This document shows positions 38,817 through 40,115 of a stretch of 64,000 nucleotides of DNA, one piece after another. Both the position numbers and the translations under genes were made by a program. Below the pieces are notes generated by a model. The model was given only the letters and a program-made list of their open reading frames with translations, had not been told where the DNA came from and ran no database searches. The stretch's first letter is position 1. Each line of letters starts with the position of its first letter. The DNA is from Eubacterium sp. (GTDB lineage: Bacteria; Bacillota; Clostridia; Oscillospirales; Acutalibacteraceae): the NCBI GenBank assembly GCA_017463985.1, contig JAFUEH010000007.1:1-64000 (forward strand), read 5' to 3'.

Positions 38817-39593
38817 ATGAACGCTATTTTCGATACCCACAGTCATTACGACGACGAACAATTTGATAACGACCGCGACGCGCTGCTGTCTTCTCTGCCC
38901 GCAAAGGGCGTAGTAAATGCTGTCAGCTGCGGCGTCGACATCGCCACCTCCAAGGCCAATCAGGCGCTGGCGCATCAGTACGGCTATCTTTACTTTGCCG
39001 CCGGCTTTCATCCGGAAAATCTGGAGGGCTTCGACCTGAGCGACCTGGCAGCGATCGAATCGCTGGCGGCGGATGAAAAATGCGTGGCGATCGGTGAGAT
39101 CGGGCTGGACTATCACTGGATGGCTTCACCAAAGGAAACGCAGCAGGCCTTCTTCCGGGAGCAGGCGCTCTTGGCCAACCGGCTGGGCTTGCCGGTGATC
39201 GTGCACGACCGTGAGGCGCACGGCGACACCCTGGCGCTGCTGCAGGAAACGAAGCCGCAGGGCGTGCTGCACTGCTTCTCCGGCTCTAAGGAGATGGCAA
39301 GAGAGATCATCAAGCTCGGAATGTACATCGGGCTGAACGGCGTGGTAACCTTTAAGAACGCACGCAAGAGCCTCGAGGTCGTACAGGAGATTCCGCTCGA
39401 ACGGCTGGTGCTCGAAACAGACTGCCCTTACCTCTGCCCCGTACCGTACCGCGGACGGCGCAACGATTCCTCCTATATCCCGTATGTTGCCGAGCGGATC
39501 GGTGAGGTGCTCGGGCTGGAGGCGCAGGCGGTGCTGGATATCACTGCCGCGAACGCACGGCGCCTGTATCAGCTGGATGAGTCCGTGCTGTAA
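38817..39593 (+). CDS. TatD-family metal-dependent hydrolase
   Basis: Amidohydrolase-fold DNase/hydrolase, 258 residues from ATG 38817 (AAGGA 5 bases upstream). N-terminal DTHSHYDDEQF holds the first metal His pair, GEIGLDYHW the Glu ligand, VIVHDREAHGD and VLHCFSGS further His ligands, and LETDCPYLCPVPYRGRRN the Asp. All ligands are present, so it should be active. The proven role of such enzymes is 3'-5' exonuclease or D-aminoacyl hydrolase, depending on the paralogue. Its stop codon lies inside the left arm of palindrome A (39590-39676). Confidence 0.93.
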   Translation: MNAIFDTHSHYDDEQFDNDRDALLSSLPAKGVVNAVSCGVDIATSKANQALAHQYGYLYFAAGFHPENLEGFDLSDLAAIESLAADEKCVAIGEIGLDYHWMASPKETQQAFFREQALLANRLGLPVIVHDREAHGDTLALLQETKPQGVLHCFSGSKEMAREIIKLGMYIGLNGVVTFKNARKSLEVVQEIPLERLVLETDCPYLCPVPYRGRRNDSSYIPYVAERIGEVLGLEAQAVLDITAANARRLYQLDESVL

Positions 39594-39676
39594 CACATGT
39601 AACACATGATTTTGGTTTTTTTCTATTTTCAATTTCTTATAGAGGAATTTATATTTTTATGTGTTACATCTGTTAC
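39590..39676. repeat. Palindrome A
   Basis: Left arm GTAACACATGTAACACAT (39590-39607), right arm ATGTGTTACATCTGTTAC (39659-39676); 17 of 18 pair. The arm is two copies of GTAACACAT. Loop 51 bases. The tatD TAA is within the left arm. Confidence 0.85.
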
Positions 39677-39680
39677 ATCG

Positions 39681-39784
39681 GTTACACGTTACGGGTTGTT
39701 ACGGGTAATTTCAGGTTATTTCTATTTTTGATTTCTTTATAAGGGATTTACTGTTTTAACCCGTAACTACCTGTAACCTGTAAC
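39681..39784. repeat. Palindrome B
   Basis: Left arm 39681-39706 and right arm 39759-39784; 23 of 26 positions pair. Arm core GTTACGGGTTGTTACGGGT. Loop 52 bases with ATTTCTATTTTTGATTTC. Confidence 0.85.
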
Positions 39785-39805
39785 TAAATCATAAGAATTT
39801 TATAA

Positions 39806-39896
39806 AATTACGCTTATTACGCGTAATTTTCGGTTTTTTTCTATTTTCACTTTCTTTTAAGGAATAACCTGAAATTACGCGTAATCATGCGTAATT
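39806..39896. repeat. Palindrome C
   Basis: Left arm 39806-39829 (AATTACGC, then ATTACGCGTAATTT) and right arm 39872-39896 pair over 22 positions with a two-versus-three base interruption. Loop 42 bases containing CTATTTTCACTTTCTTTTAA. Confidence 0.85.
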
Positions 39897-39918
39897 CTGT
39901 AATAAATCCTCTTACTAC

Positions 39919-40023
39919 CTTACGACCTTACGGGTTATTACGGGTTATTTCAGCTTTTTTCTATAATTGATTTCTTTATAGGGAATTTACTGTTTCAACC
40001 CGTAAGACCTGTAAGGTCGTAAG
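39919..40023. repeat. Palindrome D
   Basis: Left arm 39919-39946 (starts CTTACGACCTTACGGGTT) and right arm 39997-40023 pair at 25 of 28 positions. Loop 50 bases with TTTCTTTATAGGGAATTTAC, closest to the loop of B. Confidence 0.85.
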
Positions 40024-40047
40024 AATATAATATATTTTCGTCCGCTA

Positions 40048-40077
40048 TGACTGTCTCAAAGGGAGACGGTCTTTTTT
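40048..40077 (+). terminator. Terminator of the SBP-nagB-metG-tatD operon
   Basis: GACTGTCTC, AAAGG, GAGACGGTC then six T. It follows the palindrome array by 25 bases, which means the array is transcribed. Confidence 0.85.
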
Positions 40078-40115
40078 GTGTTCTAAGCCGGCGACCGGGC
40101 TCATATAGTATAGCG

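Follow-up and report, generated by a model that had tools for sequence, protein, structure and literature searches.

An array of quasi-palindromes behind tatD

The window, by which we mean the whole 64,000-nucleotide stretch of Eubacterium sp. DNA that was analysed, contains a tatD-family gene (ORF at 38817–39593, forward strand) that is separated from an unrelated gene by four quasi-palindromes of 90–106 nt each (39588–40023). Unit A (39588–39677) has arms at 39589–39607 and, inverted, at 39659–39677 around an AT-rich core (39608–39658); it carries two TGTAACACA-type sites per arm, matches the family covariance model described below and supplies the stop codon of tatD, which lies inside its first repeat. 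Unit B (39681–39784; arms 39681–39706 and 39759–39784, core about 39707–39758) has arms with three GTTAC-type sites each, of which the inner two are GTTACGGGT. Two ATTACGC-type sites occur in each arm of unit C (39806–39897; arms 39807–39824 and, inverted, 39877–39895, with the core in between), and three TTACG-type sites in each arm of unit D (39918–40023; arms about 39919–39946 and 39997–40023). An intrinsic-terminator-like hairpin with a T-tract (40049–40081, forward strand) follows 3' of the array, its stem starting at 40049, about 25 nt after the array ends. Four palindromes with jointly changing arms, overlapping the tatD stop codon and ending before a terminator, are therefore present as the initial annotation had described them, around a conserved AT-rich core.

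Tandem 9–10-mers, hereafter sites or iterons, make up each arm, two in A and C and three in B and D, and are inverted across a core of ~52 bp. The cores are AT-rich, with 70–82% AT in the central 50 nt of the 12 units of the source genome, and the inner gap is nearly constant: across 20 units of five genomes, 18 have a gap of 50–54 nt. With the family covariance model the window yielded no unit beyond these four, and a BLASTN search of phages and plasmids with the array as query found nothing; likewise, no Rfam model matched the window at its gathering score, and we do not assign the units to an Rfam RNA family. The left arm of unit C, together with the T-rich core behind it (39804–39830), itself scores as a terminator-like site.

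The units form a dispersed family in the source genome

A covariance model built from 11 units of the source genome (R1), used together with BLASTN, identified 12 distinct units in the 2.58-Mb draft assembly, that is, the 11 training units and one more. Besides the four in the window, three lie in a row on contig C25, two on C6 and one each on C19, C30 and C37. A search of this kind had been suggested for deciding whether a structured family exists elsewhere, and it reveals a dispersed one; a mobile element and a protein-binding array had both been among the options offered for the array.

The iterons of all these units are variants of one GTNAC-like kind. Units D and U6 (contig C6) are 92–93% identical, and the likeness ends at the unit borders. 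C is closest to U30 and A to U25c and C6b, while B matches D and U37 equally well. Units A, C and D have their best counterparts elsewhere in the genome, outside the array, with B tied, which favours separate arrivals of the units more than simple tandem duplication. Used as an exact pattern, the core of the source-genome units had no match in genome contigs or viral contigs, and two exact iteron patterns from the same genome were absent from the viral contigs scanned.

Repeated sites can account for the covariation of the arms

RNA folding of 39580–40080 gave a z of −14.1, none of 100 shuffles being as good, and six DNA folds of single units (all four on the forward strand, A and B also on the reverse) gave z values of −4.6 to −7.5, without an equal among 200 shuffles. 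Across 11 units of the source genome, 89.4% of the pair cells were standard, compared with 25–41% when the partners were slid, and two-sided changes occurred in 34 cells against a shuffle mean of 13.0. The excess of compensatory changes that had been named as a test of the hairpin is, thus, real.

If pairing alone were selected, outer sites should best match outer sites, and inner sites inner ones, across the core (nested comparison). However, in 20 units from five genomes site identity was 0.889 for nested, 0.875 for crossed and 0.878 for direct comparisons, with nested not above crossed or direct (Wilcoxon p 0.32 and 0.40), and 18 further units from five other genomes gave 0.824, 0.840 and 0.840, respectively. 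One unit of genome G005 that has no neighbouring rep gene matches perfectly in the crossed comparison and imperfectly in the nested one. The site finder used for these values treats the three comparisons equally; it accepts a left arm only if identity within it reaches 50%, takes no account of spacer bases and uses two sites per arm even where three exist, and it picked doubtful sites in U25a, U25c, G080_C5b and G070. The equality of the three identities implies that the covariation is explained by repeated copies of one site, and that the arms pair because these sites are laid out inverted. The claim that a hairpin, and not a sequence, is under selection is not borne out; as far as these alignments indicate, each unit maintains multiple copies of one site, and the covariation can be explained without pairing.

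The hairpin itself may nonetheless play a role, in view of three observations: in the rep-linked units with GGGGCA/GTGGCA iterons (L074–L080, L104) the outer site is unlike the inner one and matches across the core; spacers also match in some arms, for example in U37; and in pRN1 a mutated stem is reported to have been functional only after its symmetry had been restored (PMC4234260). For the SCCmec protein Cch2, a D5_N-type helicase, binding is described as lost without direct repeats and kept without inverted repeats (PMC7581432).

The module lies directly behind genes for D5-type primase-helicases

Two of the 12 source-genome units follow the C-terminus of a Rep protein, encoded on C6 by an open frame that enters from the contig end and on C37 by a broken remnant, of which 68 residues could be aligned, in front of the unit. 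The C-terminal protein corresponds to Pfam Pox_D5 (PF03288, E 5e-11), and a full-length relative from G080 contains D5_N, DUF5906 and Pox_D5 domains; Pfam detected no primase domain in this short Rep. PDB matches of the G080 Rep were 'DNA primase' 7ola (E 6e-12), which we take to be the SaPI5 Rep, ASFV C962R and poxvirus D5/E5 chains. No D5_N domain was found in the source assembly.

In relatives, the module lies directly behind the stop codon of genes for D5-type primase-helicases (Rep) with a C-terminal Pox_D5 domain, its start falling between 5 nt upstream and about 100 nt downstream of that stop. A strict four-site test was passed by 22 of 44 cellular rep loci; control windows taken elsewhere in these loci passed it in 8 of 771 cases, and shuffled sequences in 4 of 440. 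This set, 48 loci minus two with no rep stop in reach (L085, L105) and two duplicates (L131, L078), is the one in which the pattern was first noticed; the 17 viral loci were fetched later, and 13 of them passed, against 18 of 463 control windows, the number of independent viral loci being below 17, as tails are common to L142 and L145, to L149 and L150, and to L147 and L083. Two of six named phage records also passed. Several of the reps that failed the strict test (22 of 44, and four of the six phage records) are followed by looser repeats as seen by eye.

The iterons behind the reps differ, being TGTAGCTAA in G080, TGTAGCAGC in L102, GGGGCA/GTGGCA in L074–L080 and TTTAGAGGA-like in two Micavibrio loci (L081, L083). 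A second covariance model (R2), built from the source-genome units and three units of two congeners, matched the module at the rep stop in six of nine rep-linked loci outside its training set (L095, L099, L102, L104, L077 and L074; missed were L096, L098 and L115). Other families of the order account for two of these six, and other Clostridia-type records for two more. SaPI-type phage satellites carry integrase, regulation and packaging genes around rep and origin. The ORFs flanking the array and the G080 rep are host-like by eye; gene names (coaD, hisF, uvrC, integrase and so on) were likewise assigned by eye, except for the tatD family and the Pfam-tested Rep. At another locus (L072, G033:C8), a distant D5-type rep lacks a four-site module behind its end and precedes what by eye resembles a gene for a tyrosine integrase, and the intergenic stretches of L095–L098 hold other GC-rich repeats (GTAGGGGCGATTCACGAATCGCCC and similar), unlike the units.

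Rep tails and iterons change together

Two loci of G094 (C193 and C258; L098 and L099) share the first 99 nt of the 3' part of rep and differ in the last ~28 codons; their iterons also differ (GTGGCA and GTAACAG), and their cores are alike. The Rep body on a third contig, C188 (L097), ends in the same 99 nt with which C193 and C258 begin. This constitutes an assembly branch with two alternative rep tails, and collapsed copies or population variants would both look so. The reps of G005 and of G094 C193 share a flank (83% identity over 261 nt) and can, because of it, be placed at the same host locus, yet their tails and iterons differ in sequence.

Over a wider set, similarity of Rep tails correlates with similarity of left arms (r 0.48, p 0.0002, n=29), and continues to do so once the helicase core is accounted for (r 0.33, p 0.0004, n=24), although the helicase core itself is about as strongly related to arm similarity (r 0.51). 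The close Reps of G080, G005 and G094 have tails that are 64–70% alike and arms that are unlike. The set used for the correlations is without the near-duplicates L076, L079 and L121, and arm offsets were read by eye. At the sequence level, our comparisons show that Rep tail and iterons change jointly; that the tail sets iteron specificity is a correlative suggestion.

Most units found in the genus are orphans

The early models missed most relatives, R1 finding units in three of 60 genomes and R2 in five of 40. A third model (R3) identified 44 units in 11 of 80 draft genomes of the genus, both strands merged: 12 in the source genome, 13 in G080, four in G085, three each in G033 and G094, two each in G028, G025 and G005, and one each in G078, G063 and G070. 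Only six of the 44 lie behind a rep end (C6, G080 C21, G094 C193 and C258, G005 C34 and G078 C12) and one behind the C37 remnant; 36 are orphans lacking both, and the remaining one (G085 C62) is truncated at the end of its contig. A genus-wide search with the G080 Rep (E 1e-10 or better) placed no rep at the orphans, and a search for rep remnants at 14 unit loci, where C6 and C37 alone stand out, and at 17 more loci found none at orphans.

Genomes may hold orphans of several specificities. For instance, the 12 orphans of G080 show by eye about nine iteron types (TGTAGC, TGTAAC and TGGCAA twice each, and TGTCCC, TGGTCC, TGTCAC, TGTTCC, GTACAA and TGTTTT), and the sole Rep found in this genome sits by TGTAGCTAA. 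G025 (83% complete) and G028 contain orphans and no D5_N match, as does the source assembly. All four genomes that have either a solo-type rep or the C6 tail contain orphans, as do six of the 76 others (p 0.00013); this grouping was chosen post hoc, counts G033 (distant rep of similar length) among the others and includes genomes on which R3 was partly trained.

Unit loci are often close to terminator-like hairpins. Such a hairpin lies within 60 nt at 24 of 32 unit loci, as compared with 87 of 577 random positions, a set that includes coding DNA; at 15 of these 24 loci it lies within 10 nt. The unit is on the T-tract side in 19 of the 24, the window array being among the other five.

The tatD gene is present in 54 of 60 genomes. 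Among the best 30 of these 54 loci, one of which is that of the source genome, 25 of the 29 relatives have at least 600 nt behind tatD, and none of the 25 contains a unit there; no homologous next gene was in reach in the 29. The comparison of tatD 3' regions that had been suggested earlier thus yields absence in every relative with enough sequence.

Discussion

We consider the units to be, with a probability of about 0.8, orphan replication-origin modules of the D5/pRN1/SaPI kind, their function being predicted from sequence features. Two or three inverted iterons on each side would be bound by the C-terminal winged helix of a primase-helicase Rep, and two Rep assemblies would then open the AT-rich core of ~52 bp. 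The window units, which have no adjacent rep, would be orphan origins, either dispersed as units consisting of the origin alone or remaining from rep elements that have since gone.

By analogy, the module itself is of a known kind. The initial annotation knew of no named repeat class with such a combination of features, but stem-loop origins with unconserved arms have been described behind primase-helicase genes (PMC4234260). According to that paper, a 100-bp stem-loop behind rep is required for replication of pRN1; it has a 21-nt stem and a 58-nt loop, and its Rep combines an SF3 helicase with a winged helix. Among pRN1 relatives the sequence of the stem-loop varies and the stem-loop is kept, and Bordetella phage BIP-1 also has one (PMC4234260). 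Our units resemble these origins in their unconserved arms and in the position of rep-linked relatives 3' of Rep, and the 90–106 nt units of the window agree with their ~100 bp length, ~20-nt arms and ~50–60-nt loop. They differ in that their arms are visibly repeated 9–10-mers, whereas the pRN1 paper recognises no iterons in that plasmid (PMC4234260), in that the window units form a chromosomal array with no adjacent Rep, and in the short G080 Rep with no Pfam primase domain. Whereas the rep-linked relatives sit downstream of a Rep that has an SF3 helicase and a winged helix, the window units follow tatD, and we therefore call the latter origin-like orphans and not pRN1-type replicons.

SaPI origins have iterons directly behind rep, which the C-terminal domain of Rep recognises (PMC7581432), as it may do here; the SaPI5 Rep is a D5_N-type helicase like that of G080, although the window units are orphan and in an array. 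In PLE, the origin changes in step with the initiator's DNA-binding domain (PMC8263062), as the iterons do with the Rep tail here; the PLE initiator is, however, of the RepA_N kind, and orphans go unmentioned in the available portion of that account (PMC8263062). REP/REPIN sequences with their RAYT are also dispersed, palindromic, intergenic and partly arrayed (PMC2817692, PMC3116915), but our units have variable arms around a conserved core, and the linked gene encodes a helicase and not a Y1 transposase. The units were not classed as REPINs, as no Y1 transposase was found in G025, G028 or G033 and that of the source genome is on a contig where no unit was detected, nor as MITEs, which have constant terminal inverted repeats and a target-site duplication, since the arms vary between units and no duplications were seen by eye. 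In a literature search that covered few subscription papers, we found no description of Rep-less chromosomal origin arrays and no report of several specificities per chromosome or of rep-plus-origin units flanked by host-like ORFs.

How the orphans arose can be read in several ways. One version of the origin reading commits itself to a mode of spread: the units would be miniature mobile elements, copied in trans by Rep without a transposase and settling beside intrinsic terminators. We hold this to be quite possible, at somewhat below even odds. It is consistent with the identity between D and U6 confined to the unit, with the best matches of the array units lying elsewhere (B tied), with the patchy distribution in 11 of 80 genomes, with rep remnants being confined to one locus (C37) of the 31 searched, with the proximity to terminator-like hairpins and with the occurrence of orphans in all genomes that have a solo-type rep or the C6 tail. 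Against this, neither a target-site duplication by eye nor a base-exact empty site was seen, no insertion chemistry is known for such units, and the last two associations are tempered by the coding DNA among the random positions and by the post hoc grouping and training of R3. Somewhat less probably, the orphans are scars of successive whole rep-plus-origin elements, each with its own iteron type, of which only the origin was left; the broken rep tail before the C37 unit fits such a history, as do the many iteron types per genome with matching sites within each unit, as if each had recently served its own Rep, but rep remnants are absent from the remaining loci searched.

The host might also keep the units as decoys, chromosomal iterons binding incoming Reps and weakening their replication while the genome gathers iteron types. 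The diversity in G080 would suit this reading, and there are precedents: in lambda, plasmids with a partial origin (ITN3-4 plus oop transcription) block replication (PMC3349717), and for PLE satellites the authors name a phage nuclease as the likely force selecting the joint change of origin and initiator (PMC8263062). We nonetheless regard decoys as rather improbable: two exact iteron patterns of the source genome are absent from viral contigs, its iterons are all of one GTNAC-like kind, and single copies in the chromosome may not suffice to titrate Rep. Least likely by far is a 3' UTR RNA structure or a REP/REPIN-like palindrome, for which the strong predicted folds and the placement between tatD and the terminator could be invoked. 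The window has no Rfam match, repeated sites account for the covariation, the 25 informative relatives have no unit behind tatD, the sole Y1 transposase found in the source genome lies on a contig in which we found no units (C21), and such transposases are absent from three of the six unit-bearing genomes searched (G025, G028, G033). The Y1 gene on C21 is of the IS200-like type (G000:C21:34330-34686).

Under the origin reading, a family of covarying palindromes becomes readable as candidate binding sites of a widespread initiator, and a sequence rule emerges by which origins can be located in D5-type phages and satellites and Rep tails can be matched to iterons. Chromosomes would then carry about a dozen predicted orphan origins and, if these move or interfere, they would represent a new mode of interaction between small replicons and their hosts. 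More speculatively, and in our estimation unlikely as a whole, origin-only units could represent a novel type of miniature mobile element that a D5-type primase-helicase multiplies in trans, with no transposase involved. Tail and iterons would be swapped as a cassette, so that genomes build libraries of orphan origins of different specificity; if true, such libraries could both record and brake related replicons.
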